In this document: positions 7,884-42,887 of the stretch, in pieces | How the letters are laid out: each line of letters starts with the position of its first letter | Position numbering within the stretch: position 1 is the stretch's first letter | NCBI RefSeq assembly: GCF_000971195.1 | Contig: NZ_BBLZ01000008.1 | Coordinates: forward strand, 37,747-101,746 | DNA from: Demequina soli | GTDB lineage: Bacteria; Actinomycetota; Actinomycetes; Actinomycetales; Demequinaceae | Length of the DNA stretch: 64,000 bases | Reading direction: 5' to 3' | Made by a program: the position numbers and the translations under genes | The notes under the pieces: generated by a model | What the model saw: only the letters and a program-made list of their open reading frames with translations | Databases searched by the model: none | What the model was told of the DNA's origin: nothing

Positions 7884-8690
7884 TCAGGCCCCCTTCGCGA
7901 TGGCCGCGGCGACCACGGCGTCCTCGATGTCCGCGGCGCGCGGGTGCCCCGCCGGCGGATCCTCGGGCGACCACACCCGGTACCCCCGGCCCCGGCGCCA
8001 CGTGCGCGCGGGGTCGCCCGGCGCATCGTCCGCCACCACGTGCCCCGGCACCCCGGCGAGGACCTCCGCGGGGGTGCCCTCGAGCAGGATCTCGCCCGCG
8101 TCGAGGACCACCACGCGGTGCGCGCGCTCGGCCTCGTCGAGGTAGGTGGTGGCCATCACCACGGCCGCGCCCTGCGACGCGGCGAGGGAGACCATGCGCC
8201 ACAGGTCGACGCGGCTGACGGGGTCGACGCCGGTGGACGGCTCGTCGAGGATGAGCAGCTCGGGCCGGTGCAGCATCGCGAGGGAGAACGCGAGCTTCTG
8301 GCGCATGCCGCCGGACAGGTCGCGTGCCAGGCGCGACGCGGCCTGCTCGAGGCCCGCGCCCGTGAGCAGGGCCGCCCGCCGCTCCGCGAGGGCCGTGCCG
8401 GCGATGCCGTGGGCGGCGGCGACGAAGGCGATGTTCTCGTCGACCGAGAGGTCGCGCCACACCCCCGCCGCGGTGGGCATGAAGCCGATGCGCGCGAGGG
8501 CGGGCGCGGTGACCTCGCCGGCGGTCGGCGCGATCGCCCCGGCGAGGGTGCGCAGCAGCGTGGTCTTGCCCGCGCCGTCGCCGCCGACGACCGCGACGAT
8601 CTCGCCCGGGTCGACCGTGATCGAGACGCCCGCGAGCGCGGCGCGCCCGCTCCGCTCGACCGTGACGCCGGTCGCGCCCCACGCGGTCAT
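7884..8690 (-). CDS. ABC exporter ATP-binding protein, second cassette
   Basis: Cytoplasmic ATPase, 268 residues. Walker A is GGDGAGKTTLLR, the signature is LSGGMRQKLAFS and Walker B is LLILDEPSTGVDP, all intact, so this is probably the catalytically competent partner of the degenerate cassette encoded next. The ATG at 8690 overlaps the stop of the permease gene by 4 bp; longer readings run through the permease gene in another frame. The last ~40 residues are Trp/Arg/Pro-rich and have no obvious family match. Confidence 0.9.
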   Translation of the reverse strand: MTAWGATGVTVERSGRAALAGVSITVDPGEIVAVVGGDGAGKTTLLRTLAGAIAPTAGEVTAPALARIGFMPTAAGVWRDLSVDENIAFVAAAHGIAGTALAERRAALLTGAGLEQAASRLARDLSGGMRQKLAFSLAMLHRPELLILDEPSTGVDPVSRVDLWRMVSLAASQGAAVVMATTYLDEAERAHRVVVLDAGEILLEGTPAEVLAGVPGHVVADDAPGDPARTWRRGRGYRVWSPEDPPAGHPRAADIEDAVVAAAIAKGA

Positions 8691-9736
8691 CGCGTCGCCT
8701 CCGCCTTCCGGCCGGCCGCGCGACGGTGTGCGCTCGGCGCGAGGTCGCGGCGGAAGCGCAGCACCGCGGCGGTGAAGACCAGCAGCGCCATGCCCGCGAG
8801 CACCACGAACGGCACCCACAGCGCGTCGAGCCCGGCGCCGCGCAGGAAGATGCCCTGCGCGAGCTGCACGAAGTACGTCAGCGGCAGGCAGCGCCCGATC
8901 GCGGCGATCGCGGCGGGCATCGCCGACAGCGGGAAGATGAAGCCCGACAGCAGGATCTGGGGAAGCAGCAGCATGATCGCGAGCTGGATCGCCTGCGCCT
9001 GGGTCTGCGACGCGGTCGAGATGAGCACGCCGAGGCCGAGCACCACGAAGAGGAAGATCCCCGCCCCGAGCGCGAACAGCCACGGGCTGCCGTTGAACGG
9101 CACACCGAAGATCCACACGCCCAGCAGGGTCACCACGAGCATGTCGAACGCCGCGAGGATGAAATAGGGCGCGATCTTGCCGATGATGACGTCGGCCGGC
9201 CTGAGCGGCATCACCGCGAGCTGCTCGAGGGTGCCGCTCTGGCGCTCCTTGACGAGCCCGATCGACGTGATGATGGTGCCGATGAACGTGAGGATGAGGC
9301 CGATCAGCGCGGGCACCATCACCCACGACGTGTCGAGGTCGGGGTTGTAGAGGATCTCGATCCGGACCTGGTCACCCAGGCGACCGAGCGCGGCGTCTGC
9401 GGCCTGCGCCGTGAACAGGCTCGCGCCGTCGACGTACGCGGTGGGCGGCTGCGTGGTGGTGTCGATCACCACCTCGGTGTCGTTGTCCCGCATCCAGGTC
9501 ATCGCGTCCTCGGTGGTGGCGTCGGGCGAGACCTGGCCGATGTCGAACAGCGCGGGCGCGTGGGCCGCCACCTGCTCCGCGTCGGGGCCGATCACGCGCG
9601 TGGGGATCGAGTCGACCGTGAAGTTGGCGGCGTAGCCGAAGATCGTGAGCAGCACGATGGGCAGGAGGATCAACATCGCCATCGTGCGTCGGTCGCGGCG
9701 CAGCTCGCGGAACTCCTTGAGGATCATCGCCTTCAT
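8687..9736 (-). CDS. ABC-2 type exporter permease
   Basis: Membrane subunit of the exporter, 349 residues from the ATG at 9736 (a GTG 9 bp upstream is possible). The layout is typical ABC-2: one N-terminal helix after the cytoplasmic KEFRELRRDRRTMAML motif, a large external domain of ~150 residues, then five helices. The loop ERQSGTLEQLAVMPLRPADVIIGK is the conserved cytoplasmic coupling segment and the sixth helix region contains LLPQILLSGFIFPL. It is first in the operon with two ATPase genes. The substrate cannot be predicted. Confidence 0.9.
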   Translation of the reverse strand: MKAMILKEFRELRRDRRTMAMLILLPIVLLTIFGYAANFTVDSIPTRVIGPDAEQVAAHAPALFDIGQVSPDATTEDAMTWMRDNDTEVVIDTTTQPPTAYVDGASLFTAQAADAALGRLGDQVRIEILYNPDLDTSWVMVPALIGLILTFIGTIITSIGLVKERQSGTLEQLAVMPLRPADVIIGKIAPYFILAAFDMLVVTLLGVWIFGVPFNGSPWLFALGAGIFLFVVLGLGVLISTASQTQAQAIQLAIMLLLPQILLSGFIFPLSAMPAAIAAIGRCLPLTYFVQLAQGIFLRGAGLDALWVPFVVLAGMALLVFTAAVLRFRRDLAPSAHRRAAGRKAEATR

Positions 9737-9801
9737 GAGGGCCACCCTTCCGAGGGACGTCGTCGTCTATTCTCCACCCGAGGAAACACTATCAACCTCG
9801 G

Positions 9802-9835
9802 GCGATTGCCAATGACAGATGTGACAGGTGGGACG
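9802..9835. repeat. Left 34-bp inverted repeat flanking the acetyltransferase gene
   Basis: This segment, core CCAATGACAGATGTGAC, is the reverse complement of 10342-10375 with two mismatches. It sits in a divergent promoter region, where no gene ends, so it is not an ordinary terminator. The ggacg end runs into a GACGATGCG motif at 9832-9840. Confidence 0.75.
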
Positions 9836-9843
9836 ATGCGTGG

Positions 9844-10323
9844 GTGCGCATCTCCGTGACCGATCCCGCCGCCCCCGACATCGTCGCCCTGCTGACCGAG
9901 CACCTGGCCGACATGCACGCCACCTCGCCCGCCGAGTCGGTCCACGCGCTCGATGTCGAGCGCCTGCGCGCGCCGCACGTGACCTTCCTCGCGGCGCGCA
10001 CCGACGACGGCGCGCTCATGGGCGTCGGGGCCCTGACGGAGCCCGGCGACGGCCCCGCGGAGATCAAGTCGATGCGCACGGCGGCCGCGCATCGGGGCCT
10101 GGGCGTCGCGGCGGCCGTGCTCGCGGCCCTCGTCGAGGTCGCCCGCGAGCGCGGACACGTGCACGTCAGCCTCGAGACGGGCACCGAGGGCTACTTCGCC
10201 GCCGCGCATCGTCTCTACGAGCGGGCGGGCTTCATCGAGTGCGGCCCGTTCGGGCCCTACACGCTCGACCCGCACTCGCGGTACTACACCCTCGAGCTCG
10301 GCGACTCCCGACGACAGGCGTGA
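9844..10323 (+). CDS. GNAT-family N-acetyltransferase
   Basis: Predicted cytoplasmic acetyl-CoA-dependent acetyltransferase, 159 residues. The acetyl-CoA binding motif A is HRGLGVAAAVLAALVEVA (R-G-x-G form), followed by LETGTEGYFAAAHRLYERAGF and a C-terminal GPFGPYTLDPHSRYY typical of the YjgM/PhnO-like branch. The GTG start at 9844 follows GGACGATGCG by three bases with no Shine-Dalgarno, so initiation may be leaderless. The gene stands alone between 34-bp inverted repeats (9802-9835 and 10342-10375), unlike the multi-gene operons on both sides. The substrate is unknown. Confidence 0.87.
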   Translation: MRISVTDPAAPDIVALLTEHLADMHATSPAESVHALDVERLRAPHVTFLAARTDDGALMGVGALTEPGDGPAEIKSMRTAAAHRGLGVAAAVLAALVEVARERGHVHVSLETGTEGYFAAAHRLYERAGFIECGPFGPYTLDPHSRYYTLELGDSRRQA

Positions 10324-10341
10324 CGGGGCGACGGGCCTGCC

Positions 10342-10375
10342 CGTCCCACCCGTCACATCTGTCATTGGGAATCGC
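10342..10375. repeat. Right 34-bp inverted repeat flanking the acetyltransferase gene
   Basis: Inverted copy of 9802-9835 (32 of 34 matching). It overlaps the last codons and the stop (10362-10364) of the convergent ABC permease gene, so the repeat supplies that protein's C-terminal residues. Core ACATCTGTCATTGGGA. Confidence 0.75.
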
Positions 10376-12023
10376 GGAGGTCGCGCCTCACGTAGGCCGC
10401 GACACCCGCCGCGCACATCACGGCCGCCGCCCCGAACAGCACCACGGGCTGGTACCAGTACAGGCCGTTGTCCAGGGGGAACTCCCACGTGTAGTAGTAG
10501 AAGGGCGACAGGTGCGCGAGGGGCACGAGCGCATGGTTCACCGCCGCGAAGGCCGTGAGGGCCCAGCCGATCACCGCGACCCCCGTGCCCAGCCCGACGG
10601 CGACCCGCGGCCGGCCGGTCGCGGCGCCTCCCAGGAAGGCGGCCGCGCCGAGCACCGCGCCGAGCCCCCACACGAGGACGCCGGTGGCCGCGATGTGGGC
10701 GTACGACATGCCGAGCGCGCCGATCCAGTTGCCCAGCGAGATCCCGGCGACCACCGCGATCGCGACCACGAGCGCGACGGTCATGGTCGCGGCGGCCCGC
10801 CGCCAGGCCACGGCCGCGCGCGACAGGGGCGAGCCCAGCAGCACCGCGATGGTGCGGCGCCGCTCCTCGCCCGCAAGCGCGCCGCCCGCGGAGATCGCCG
10901 CGACGGCGACCGCGATCGGGACCGTGATCGACAGCATCTCGCCGTGGTACCAGCCCTCGGGCCGCGAGTAGTCGGCGAAGCCGACCATCGCCATCACCTT
11001 GTCGGGGAACGAGCTCGCGAACTGGCCCACGAAGTCGGACACCGCGTTGAACAGCGGCCCCATCACCACGAGCATCGCGAGGATGCCGCCGCCCGCGATC
11101 GTGAGGATCGCGCGGCTCTCGCTGAGCGCCTTGCCGATGATCCCGCGCGTGCTCGAGGTGCCGCGCAGGAGGTCGAGCACGCGGGCGAGCCGCTCGTCCT
11201 CCTGGAGCCGCGCGATCAGCGGGATGGACGCCTCCCCGGAGACCAGGTCGCGCCGCACGTACGCCGCCCAGCCGACCAGCACGAGCGCGGCCGCGATCGC
11301 GAGCAGCACCCCCACCTGCGTCCAGTCGGTGCCGTTCGCGAGCGGCGCCGCGCCCTTGATGTAGTACCAGGGGAAGATCTTGGCCCAGTCCTCCCACCCG
11401 GAGATGAGCGGCAGCAGGCCGGCCCCGAAGAACGAGACGACCAGGAAGCCGGTCGCGGCGCCCGACGCGACCCGCTGGCTGCCGGTCGCGGCGCCGAGCG
11501 CGAACGCGACCGCGCCGTAGACGAGGGCCACCGCGGTGACGTGCATCGTCGCGGCACCGATGTTCACGCTCGCCGTCGACTCGCCGAACGCGACGATCGA
11601 CAGCGCGTAGCCGGCCCACGCGAGCAGGTTGACCGCGATCGCGATGGTGAGCCCCGCGAGACCCTTCGAGGCGAGCAGCCGCGTGCGCGAGCGCGGCGCG
11701 GTGGTGAGCACGTTCATCGTGCCGTCCGCCTCCTCGCCCGCGAGCGCGGCGGCGCCGATCGAGATCGCGATGCCGGCGACCACGAACGGCCCGACGAAGT
11801 TGAACATCATGCTGAGCATGAGCCCCGTGGTGCCGGCGTCGCCGCTGATCCCGACGAGGTCCGTGTAGAAGGCCGGCATCTGGTCGAAGAACGTCGCCGC
11901 GTCGCCGATGCCCGAGTACGCCCACATGCCGAACACGGCGACCAGCCACAGGGACGAGACGCCGATGAGCGCGCCCAGCCACCGGTCGCGCAGCGACTTG
12001 AGGTAGAGGGTCTGGAGCATCAT
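10362..12023 (-). CDS. ABC exporter permease with internal duplication (polyketide/drug exporter type)
   Basis: Polytopic membrane protein of 553 residues with about twelve helices in two homologous halves. The repeat is visible: GEEADGTMNVLTTAPRSRTR and GEERRRTIAVLLGSPLSRAA occupy equivalent loops, and each half ends in AAYVRRDL. This architecture is seen in actinobacterial exporters related to antibiotic-resistance ABC pumps (COG3559-like); that assignment is from memory of the family. Start MMLQTLYLKSLRDRW overlaps the ATPase stop by 4 bp. The stop codon lies inside a 34-bp repeat. It is the third gene of the regulator-ATPase-permease operon, so a drug efflux or envelope-stress role is likely. 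Confidence 0.88.
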   Translation of the reverse strand: MMLQTLYLKSLRDRWLGALIGVSSLWLVAVFGMWAYSGIGDAATFFDQMPAFYTDLVGISGDAGTTGLMLSMMFNFVGPFVVAGIAISIGAAALAGEEADGTMNVLTTAPRSRTRLLASKGLAGLTIAIAVNLLAWAGYALSIVAFGESTASVNIGAATMHVTAVALVYGAVAFALGAATGSQRVASGAATGFLVVSFFGAGLLPLISGWEDWAKIFPWYYIKGAAPLANGTDWTQVGVLLAIAAALVLVGWAAYVRRDLVSGEASIPLIARLQEDERLARVLDLLRGTSSTRGIIGKALSESRAILTIAGGGILAMLVVMGPLFNAVSDFVGQFASSFPDKVMAMVGFADYSRPEGWYHGEMLSITVPIAVAVAAISAGGALAGEERRRTIAVLLGSPLSRAAVAWRRAAATMTVALVVAIAVVAGISLGNWIGALGMSYAHIAATGVLVWGLGAVLGAAAFLGGAATGRPRVAVGLGTGVAVIGWALTAFAAVNHALVPLAHLSPFYYYTWEFPLDNGLYWYQPVVLFGAAAVMCAAGVAAYVRRDLRDSQ

Positions 12024-19744: not shown

Positions 19745-19826
19745 CCGCGCCGGGCCCGCGCGCGGTGCGCGGCCCGCGCATCGTCCCGTCACACGCGGGA
19801 CACACGCGCGTGCCACACTCACGCAC

Positions 19827-20594
19827 GTGACCTCAGCCCGCCGCGCCCCGCTCGGCATCGCGCCGCGCCAGTGGGCCGATGCGTGGGCCGGGCTCAAGGC
19901 CATCGCGCCGCTCATGCCCGGGTCGGCACTGTTCGGGCTGGCGTTCGGGGCGCTCGTCAACGTCGCGGGCATCGGCCCGTTGGTGGGCAACTTCGCGTCC
20001 GTCTCGGTGGTCGCCGGGGCGAGCCAGATCGCGATCATCGAGTCGCTGCGCACGGGCGCGCCCGCGGCCATCGCGGTGCTCACCGCCCTGGTGATCAACG
20101 CGCGCTTCGCGCTGTACTCCGCGGCGCTCGCGCCGGTGTTCGCGGCCTTCCCGATGCGCTGGAAGCTGGGCCTCGCGCACCTCACCACCGACCAGGCCGC
20201 GGTGGTCGCGCTCCAGCATCAGGACGCGTGGCCGGACCCGGTGCGGCGCCGATGGTTCGTGGTCGGGGGCGCGCTGCCGTTCGTGGTGGTGTGGTGCATC
20301 GGCGGCGCCGCCGGCATCGCGCTCGGCCCGGTCATCCCCGAGGCCTGGCAGATCGGCTTCATCGTGCCGCTGATGTTCCTCGCGGTGATGGTGCCGGGGC
20401 TGCGCGGGGCGCCGGCGCTCACCGCGGTGGGCGTGTCGACCATCGTGGTGCTCGCGTCGCACGGGCTGCCCTACGGCCTCAACGTGCTCGCGGGCGCGAT
20501 CGCAGGGATCGTGGTGGGGTCGCTCGTGCCCGACCGGTCCGCGCATCCCGGCGCCGACGACGGGATCGCGCACGATGCGGGGGCGGGCGAGTGA
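19827..20594 (+). CDS. azlC: AzlC-family branched-chain amino acid exporter, large subunit
   Basis: Membrane protein of 255 residues with about seven helices that exports branched-chain amino acids or related compounds together with AzlD, as described for AzlCD/BrnFE. Family motifs are visible: GLKAIAPLMPGSALFGLAFG, ASQIAIIESLRTGAPAAIAVLTALVINARFALYSAAL and LTTDQAAVVALQ. The GTG at 19827 lies 7 nt after CACACT, so initiation may be leaderless. It overlaps azlD by 4 bp. A GACGATGCG-type motif (19777-19785) lies 42 bp upstream. Confidence 0.93.
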   Translation: MTSARRAPLGIAPRQWADAWAGLKAIAPLMPGSALFGLAFGALVNVAGIGPLVGNFASVSVVAGASQIAIIESLRTGAPAAIAVLTALVINARFALYSAALAPVFAAFPMRWKLGLAHLTTDQAAVVALQHQDAWPDPVRRRWFVVGGALPFVVVWCIGGAAGIALGPVIPEAWQIGFIVPLMFLAVMVPGLRGAPALTAVGVSTIVVLASHGLPYGLNVLAGAIAGIVVGSLVPDRSAHPGADDGIAHDAGAGE

Positions 20595-20905
20595 GGACCT
20601 TCCTCATCTTCCTGGCCGCGGCGATCGGCACGTACGCGATCCGCGTGTCCGGGATCGTGCTGTTCGGCGGCCCGCGCCGCCTGCCCGAGCGCGTCGAGCG
20701 CTCGCTGCGGCTCGTGGGACCGGCCGCGCTCGCGGCGATCGTCGCGAACTCGCTGCTGCTCGACGGCGGCACGTGGCGGGCGTTCGGCGCGTGGCACCTC
20801 GCGGCGCTGGTCACGATCGGCGTGGCGCTGTGGAAGCGCTCGTCGGGCTGGACCATGGCCGCCGGCGCCGTGGCGTTCGCGGCGCTGCTGCTCGCCGGCG
20901 CCTGA
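20591..20905 (+). CDS. azlD: AzlD-family branched-chain amino acid exporter, small subunit
   Basis: Small membrane partner of AzlC, 104 residues with three to four helices. The conserved opening TYAIRVSGIVLFG and VERSLRLVGPAALAAIVANSLL match the family. It starts at a GTG overlapping the azlC stop (GTGA). The stop codon is 11 bp before the large palindrome at 20917-20966, which probably terminates the transcript. Confidence 0.92.
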   Translation: MRTFLIFLAAAIGTYAIRVSGIVLFGGPRRLPERVERSLRLVGPAALAAIVANSLLLDGGTWRAFGAWHLAALVTIGVALWKRSSGWTMAAGAVAFAALLLAGA

Positions 20906-20916
20906 CGACTGGCAAA

Positions 20917-20966
20917 GACAGATGTGACGGGTGGGACGCGCGAGCGTCCCACCCGTCACATCTGTC
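20917..20966. repeat. Head-to-head copy of the 34-bp repeat, 23-bp perfect stem
   Basis: Arms 20917-20939 and 20944-20966 are perfect reverse complements with loop GCGA. Each arm is the same sequence family as the repeats at 9802 and 10342 (core GACAGATGTGACGGGTGGGA). Lying 11 bp after azlD, it should act as a strong hairpin terminator. It can also be read as the repeat pair without cargo. Confidence 0.85.
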
Positions 20967-21003
20967 ATTGGGAACCGTCACTCCCGCATACCTTGCAGTT
21001 CTA

Positions 21004-21037: not shown

Positions 21038-21412
21038 ATGAAGGTGGGCAAGGACCTCATGGCCGCGAGCGCGGCACCGCTGGTGCTCGCGATCCTGACC
21101 GAGGGCGAGAGCTACGGCTACGCGATCGTGCGACGCGTGCGCGAGCTGTCGGACGGCGAGATCGAGTGGACCGACGGGCTGCTGTACCCGCTGCTGCACC
21201 GCCTCGAGGACGGCGGGCACGTGCGCTCGCGCTGGGGCGCCTCCGACACCGGCCGCAAGCGCCGCTACTACGAGATCACCGACGCGGGCCGGGGAGAGCT
21301 GGCCGAGCATCGTCGCCAGTGGGCGGCCGTGGTCGCCGCGCTCCGCACCGCGTGGGGCGACGCGGCCGAGGCCGCGAGCGTGGCGACGATGCGCCCCGGG
21401 GTCGCGCTGTGA
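21038..21412 (+). CDS. PadR-family transcriptional regulator
   Basis: Winged-helix repressor of 124 residues. The family core is visible: LVLAILTEGESYGYAIVRRVRELSDGEIEWTDGLLYPLLHRLEDGGHVRSRW, then RKRRYYEITDAGRGELAEHR. The Shine-Dalgarno AAGGAGG overlaps the right end of the operator. It overlaps the following membrane-protein gene by 4 bp, the standard arrangement of PadR with the membrane system it controls. The ligand is unknown. Confidence 0.93.
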   Translation: MKVGKDLMAASAAPLVLAILTEGESYGYAIVRRVRELSDGEIEWTDGLLYPLLHRLEDGGHVRSRWGASDTGRKRRYYEITDAGRGELAEHRRQWAAVVAALRTAWGDAAEAASVATMRPGVAL

Positions 21413-42793: not shown

Positions 42794-42827
42794 GGGGACC
42801 ATCCCCGCGCGGCGCGTCCCGGCGAGG

Positions 42828-42856
42828 GACGATGCGGTGGCGCGGGGCGCATCGTC
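42828..42856. repeat. GACGATGCG motif pair forming a hairpin
   Basis: GACGATGCG (42828-42836) and its complement (42848-42856) form an 11-bp stem when the flanking G/C pairs are counted, with an 11-nt loop. It lies between the LacI promoter and the terminator of the importer operon. Confidence 0.6.
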
Positions 42857-42887
42857 CCGCGGCCGGGGCGCCGCGGCCGGACGAACG

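Follow-up and report, generated by a model that had tools for sequence, protein, structure and literature searches.

The window analysed here is a stretch of 64,000 nucleotides from the genome of Demequina soli (denoted G000; 3.0 Mb), in which a GNAT acetyltransferase gene is flanked by two ABC-2 type permease genes, one divergent from it and one convergent with it (Table 1). Genes were called by a codon-usage caller without annotation, which gives approximate starts and may overlook small genes. The initial annotation placed the GNAT gene between 34-bp inverted repeats with two mismatches, and 9802-9835 indeed differs at 2 of 34 positions from the reverse-complemented 10342-10375. The left copy lies in the divergent region as described, but as a repeat it extends over an arm of only ~23 bp. 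The sequence after this arm (GGTGGGACGATGCG) resembles the arm-free sequence found at the same place in relatives, and because the relatives have similar sequence without the arm, part of the left 34-bp match is probably not repeat-derived. The convergent permease gene does end in the right copy, with the arm providing its TGA stop codon (...RDSQ*), but this copy is not a lone arm: it pairs with a partner at 10302-10324, which differs from the 23-nt arm consensus at 5 positions and contains the last codons and the stop of the GNAT gene (C-terminus GDSRRQA in G000). Within 2.5 kb of the solitary left arm, the nearest arm-like sites are the two arms of this complete element.

A further copy at 20.9 kb had been interpreted as an empty version of the same structure. 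Two arms of 23 bp (20917-20939 and 20944-20966), perfectly complementary around a 4-nt loop, are present as claimed, but they form part of a longer palindrome between azlD and a PadR-family regulator gene, and this copy is the ordinary form of the repeat, not an empty cassette.

Table 1. Positions of the repeat copies and their neighbouring genes in the window
Feature	Position	Strand	Remarks
ABC-2 type permease gene, divergent from GNAT	8687..9745	-	PF12698; synteny conserved
Solitary arm (half-element)	9803..9825	+	divergent ABC-2 permease/GNAT region; 1 mismatch to 23-nt arm consensus
GNAT acetyltransferase gene	9844..10323	+	PF00583, E 3.3e-13
Complete palindromic element, GNAT/permease convergent junction	10302..10374	.	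arms 10302-10324 and 10352-10374
ABC-2 type permease gene, convergent with GNAT	10362..12023	-	PF12679, E 3.2e-21
azlD gene	20591..20905	+	PF05437, E 3.2e-19; stop codon abuts element
Complete palindromic element	20906..20977	.	directly after azlD stop codon, before padR-like gene
PadR-family regulator gene	21038..21412	+	PF03551; 60 bp downstream of element

A dispersed palindrome with sharp ends

The 17-mer core CCAATGACAGATGTGAC matches the window four times at up to 3 mismatches, compared to 0.06 matches expected. At up to 2 mismatches, G000 as a whole contains 80 matches (41 forward, 39 reverse) and none to the reversed control pattern, and consequently the core belongs to a dispersed repeat, as one of the earlier suggestions had it. 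The 39 stretches with core matches outside the window were analysed together with the window. Scanning for the 23-nt arm, with arm pairs sought at most 200 bp apart, yielded 53 features, namely 39 head-to-head pairs and 14 solitary arms, four of the latter being halves of two pairs broken by N runs of 366 and 214. These runs lie at the centre of two palindromes (L022:6316-6681 and L044:1647-1860) and may be assembly gaps or withheld sequence.

Most core copies are thus paired head to head, in elements of 59-192 bp that have sharp ends and variable interiors. The conserved inverted ends span ~23 bp, with the arm sequence 5'-CGAYTNNCAATGACANNTGTGAC. Among 78 arms, positions 5, 8, 10, 12, 14 and 19 are invariant (T at position 5 and C at position 8 in 78/78), position 1 is C in 68 and position 2 is G in 77, while each of the ten positions outside the arm carries at most 0.27 bits. 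Both ends of the element read CGAYT, and the ten flanking bases contain no conserved tag. Individual copies include a near-perfect palindrome (L034) and a longer form with a nested hairpin (L099, from the relative G051).

Placement at gene ends

Classified by the orientation of the neighbouring genes, 22 of the 39 pairs are convergent, 12 tandem and 5 divergent, whereas the window's 65 pairs of adjacent genes split into 10 convergent, 44 tandem and 11 divergent (binomial p 4.5e-9 by count; one of the 10 convergent pairs in the window is itself a repeat site). Gene 3' ends adjoining paired elements fall within -13 to +10 nt of the element edge in 47 of 56 cases, 13 of them at exactly -13. Stop codons are found inside elements 21 times; 13 are TGA at arm positions 11-13, giving C-termini such as DSQ, and six are TGA made by the T at arm position 1. 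The family is therefore one of sharp-ended repeats that sit at gene ends and supply stop codons and, being repeated, intergenic and near gene 3' ends, it resembles REPs in this respect.

According to the initial annotation, a mobile cassette would be contradicted if all copies were plain gene-end elements with the copy at 9802 as an outlier. This is nearly what we find, but the five divergent pairs depart from it, one of which, upstream of rpiB, is common to five species. Several solitary arms also lie between divergent genes.

Variation between Demequina species

The repeat is restricted to one clade. A search of the order matched 6 of 396 genomes, all of the window's genus, and exact matches in a collection of 84,980 species were confined to 12 stretches, all Demequina (the window's own genome may be absent there). 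The earlier proposal to search the genome and its relatives for the core thus led to many copies in G000 and, in the collections searched, to Demequina only. A looser arm pattern matches 10 of 44 genomes of the genus, with 93 hits in G000, 84 in G006, 51 in G051 and 40 in G022, followed by 16 in G024, 12 in G039, 10 in G002 and 3 in G044; single hits in G050 and G003 may be due to chance, and the control pattern was also hit once (G008).

Occupied sites differ between species. Seven orthologous junctions besides the GNAT junction, picked from the 39 pairs for good arm match, were compared in G006, G022, G044 and G051. The element is present at the gdh junction in G000 and G051 and absent in G022, G044 and G006; at the imp junction it is present in G000 and G006 and absent in G051, G022 and G044; and at the abcf junction it occurs in G000, G006 and G051. 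At the mip junction it is found in G000, G006, G022 and G051, and G044 has another hairpin instead. The perm junction contains the element in G000, G006 and G051, of which G006 and G051 carry a hairpin followed by the element; G044 has only a different hairpin there, which in G022 is truncated by other DNA. On the 3' side of rpiB the element of G000 corresponds to a one-arm remnant in G006 and to nothing in G022, G044 and G051, and the citrate synthase site is occupied only in G000, whose neighbour gene differs too. The copy between divergent genes upstream of rpiB is common to G000, G006, G022, G051 and G044 and missing in G054, G040, G039 and G019 (20 of 44 loci inspected; the neighbour differs in G002, G011 and G024). 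No conclusion rests on the rpiB tree, a single-gene tree that is weak and whose G011 branch is a likely extraction artefact. Presence and absence between species support the insertion of copies, although the change at most of the polymorphic sites may have been either gain or loss.

Hairpin formation and a possible role in transcription termination

The element at the GNAT/permease junction has a minimum free energy of -49.6 kcal/mol (z -6.8; 0 of 200 shuffles as stable) and the element after azlD one of -53.6 (z -10.3); strong folds were obtained for four elements. The stretch around the solitary left arm (9790-9863) folds no better than its shuffles (z +0.5). Weak covariation within elements is seen at arm positions 16-23 (14 of 2000 shuffles reach the observed value) and 24-32 (87 of 2000). 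Positions 1-15 show none (2000 of 2000 shuffles for positions 1-5 and 1638 of 2000 for positions 6-15), so that covariation was discarded as proof of an RNA stem, and there is no support over these positions for a constraint by the RNA stem alone. The only Rfam matches in the window are tRNAs.

Taken together, these properties make it probable that the repeat is a Demequina-restricted family of non-coding REP/MITE-like palindromes, tolerated or used as bidirectional gene-end hairpins. Copies would insert and survive mainly between convergent genes or just after a stop codon, which the arm itself can supply, as it does at the junctions described above. Transcripts from either side would fold into a long hairpin, which may end or insulate transcription and protect mRNA 3' ends, and the spread of the family would depend on an activity acting in trans that leaves no evident target duplication.

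The main alternative is that the copies are plain intrinsic terminators that share sequence by chance and are kept by selection without any mobility. Stable GC-rich hairpins at gene ends, a property of such terminators, are indeed present, and at mip and perm the position of the element is taken by another hairpin in G044. We nevertheless consider this explanation unlikely. A terminator does not need the conserved 15-nt foot, which is kept independently of pairing; copies occur in divergent regions; and neither the restriction to one clade nor the presence and absence between species is expected of terminators. A terminator scan also gave no match, and hence no U-tract, at either window element. 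Actinobacterial terminators may lack a U-tract. At the perm site in G006 and G051 the element follows another hairpin, and hence it is not needed there as a terminator.

An improbable alternative is that the elements could act as REP-like translational brakes, i.e., hairpins at most 15 nt from the stop codon that would stall ribosomes and lower the expression of the upstream gene. The distances of most gene 3' ends from the elements are in the appropriate range, and PMC12306157 states, citing an earlier source, that in E. coli ribosomes stall at REPs located at most 15 nt from a stop codon; however, equally tight spacing is expected from compact convergent spacers.

Conservation of the GNAT neighbourhood

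A match to the GNAT protein at E<=1e-20 is present in 25 of 41 genomes of the genus, own included. The divergent permease gene adjoins it in G006, G022, G044, G051, G019 and G011, and in these relatives it is followed by a convergent gene, matched across species only by its position and the similarity of its end sequence. The junction contains diverged elements in G006, G022, G051, G039 and G024, no element in G044, G019 and G002, and an unrelated palindrome in G011. The stop codon of the GNAT gene derives from the element in G006 as well (...DSP), and the genes of the element-free G044 and G019 end in other sequence. Because the gene holds its place in the relatives whether the palindrome is there or not, comparison of the loci identifies GNAT as an ancestral conserved neighbour and not cargo. 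The suggestion that the gene had entered a palindrome is not needed either, since it was the palindrome that inserted beside the gene; nor is there a clean empty site without GNAT among these relatives, in which the gene stays at the same place with and without the element.

The solitary arm upstream of GNAT is missing at that place in the five relatives aligned and is thus found only in G000 among six genomes; several tens of bases that the relatives have near this place are also missing from G000. Since the left arm occurs only in G000 and the 3' element also in relatives, the bracket around GNAT most likely arose by two separate events that combined an older 3' element with a solitary 5' half-element. 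As a separate observation, the element tip is present in tandem in G022, in three copies at the GNAT junction and two upstream of rpiB (L053, L182), possibly a trace of slippage at the hairpin foot.

A mobile cassette carrying GNAT or other genes between paired arms is thus very improbable: single genes do lie between arms at GNAT and at L032:1552-2627, and G006 and G051 have comparable brackets, but the 3' arm at GNAT belongs to its own hairpin, the relatives keep GNAT together with its neighbours, and the eight proteins encoded between distant arms in G000, G006 and G051 are ordinary or without match. The cassette reading was rejected on account of the conserved place of GNAT, and bracketing by inverted repeats alone does not make a gene cargo. 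The eight proteins differ from each other and provide no recurrent mobile cargo of the kind looked for at other paired copies; they comprise an alcohol dehydrogenase, a phosphotyrosine phosphatase, a DUF2252 protein, an HTH regulator, two proteins without match and two with REase_MTES_1575 matches just below the curated cut-off (one also matching AbiEi_4, the other DUF559 above its cut-off). None is a transposase, in a search for an autonomous element that covered 16 stretches of G006 and G051 as well as stretches of G000, i.e., part of these genomes.

In G000, the gene bracketed at L032:1552-2627 is the one with the AbiEi_4 and REase_MTES_1575 matches, and in G051 the arms bracket or border an MTES_1575/DUF559 gene (L163), with a similar arrangement in G006 (L166). 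An adjoining aminotransferase gene is seemingly the same in all three stretches, as judged from their translations.

Comparison with known repeat families

The initial annotation also considered a MITE-like element. Conserved terminal inverted repeats around a non-coding interior agree with this proposal, but target duplication does not: at 7 offsets from the element ends, direct repeats of 2-6, 8 and 9 bp showed no consistent excess over shuffled flanks, with the largest excesses amounting to 2 of 39 sites versus 0.25-0.7 expected, and a classical MITE was rejected for this reason. ERIC, RU-1 and other MITE-like families (PMC2759123, PMC1590033) are likewise palindromic and intergenic, measure ~100-170 bp and are able to form long hairpins, and some are fused to gene C-termini, as reported for RU-1 (PMC2759123); according to PMC1590033, stem-loops in general are found in convergent spacers in preference to divergent ones. 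The Demequina repeat differs from ERIC and RU-1 in sequence, host phylum, variable interior and the lack of evident target duplication. Bidirectional intrinsic terminators also place a hairpin between convergent genes, but the Demequina repeat has a conserved foot, lacks a U-tract and forms a taxon-restricted family.

Classical REPs are thought to be moved by a transposase. A RAYT (Y1_Tnp, PF01797) was detected in 0 of 44 genus genomes, with 5 of 14 controls positive, and a RAYT-driven REP was therefore rejected. A REP in the strict sense is not supported either, since the Demequina repeat has no unpaired GTAG/CGTC tag, has both ends alike and is 59-192 bp long rather than 20-40, in addition to having no RAYT. 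The similarities to the GTAG/CGTC REPs described by Di Nocera et al. 2013 (PMC3733652) are nevertheless extensive. Those repeats are dispersed palindromes located mostly between convergent or unidirectional genes, and in the two species that were diagrammed, most of the REPs between convergent genes are separated by less than 20 bp from either 3' end; GTAG termini often supply stop codons, and CGTC REPs constitute a class without its own dedicated transposase. The host in our case belongs to Actinomycetota, and the word 'actinobacteria' has 0 occurrences in the main text of PMC3733652.

The titles and abstract openings of the literature searched, of which coverage is incomplete, gave no sign of an earlier description of the Demequina repeat, and the family appears to be new, with a behaviour already known from REPs. 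It would represent an apparently undescribed gene-end palindrome family in Actinomycetota, without the transposase thought to move classical REPs. With filled and empty polymorphic sites across sequenced species and unrelated palindromes at the same junction, Demequina allows the notion of a parasite tolerated at a safe place to be tested against that of a functional gene-end structure.

Other palindromes and species-specific arms

The palindrome that occupies the GNAT junction of G011, where other species carry the window repeat, has the core GCGGCTCCGCCACAC. Exact matches to this core number 146 in G040, 61 in G011 and 2 in G019, and the remaining 41 of the 44 genomes contain none (single hits of the control pattern occurred in four genomes). 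Among the clusters of this core in G011, 14 of 17 are exactly 118 bp long and the rest are 107, 129 and 144 bp; four clusters in G040 measure 126-183 bp (stretches L207-L226 and L065, from G011 and G040). A search for the cores and for this length retrieved 19 copies of the 118-bp form, and their comparison revealed a 40-nt stretch of constant length but near-random sequence (identity 0.36 versus 0.31 expected) and two variable 6-nt spacers (0.43-0.52), the other blocks being conserved at 0.90-1.00, in the cores partly by selection.

Another family of palindromes, family C, is found at the prfB, hpt, panD, hemH and purB junctions in G019, G054 and G000 (L227-L254); at the hemH junction G000 has the window repeat family instead. 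Family C copies share the inner motif CGACACGCCG/CGGCGTGTCG, and their outer arms are alike within a species, as seen in three species at four or five loci per species. Arms at different loci of the same species are identical at 15.0 of 20 positions (67 comparisons). Between species the value is 10.4 of 20 for the same locus and side (18 comparisons) and 10.6 of 20 for other pairs (158). These values derive from 14 loci and 23 of 28 possible arms; the other five, including both of G051, were missed by the anchor pattern and dropped. As a tentative reading, which we regard as possible but doubtful, gene-end palindromes across Demequina could inherit their position and inner motif, with the arm homogenised genome-wide in each species by a fast-changing sequence-specific protein or by gene conversion that re-labels all copies. 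For the window repeat itself, concerted evolution was rejected: within-species arm identity is 7.37 of 9 in G000, 6.17 in G006, 6.17 in G022 and 6.12 in G051, and only G000 exceeds the between-species same-locus value of 6.59, in a comparison where the right arm of abcf3 in G000 and the left arm of abcf3 in G051 were wrong arms and the first was counted.

As a further observation, the commonest 10-mer in the window is GGACGATGCG, with 36 copies versus ~1 expected from dinucleotide shuffles (for example, 9831-9840, 19777-19786 and 42827-42857). Seventeen of the 36 are intergenic, corresponding to 1.94 per kb compared to 0.34 in genes. Codon use explains part of this abundance, because 12 of the 19 genic copies are in one reading frame; an uptake-like or protein-binding motif is a possible function.
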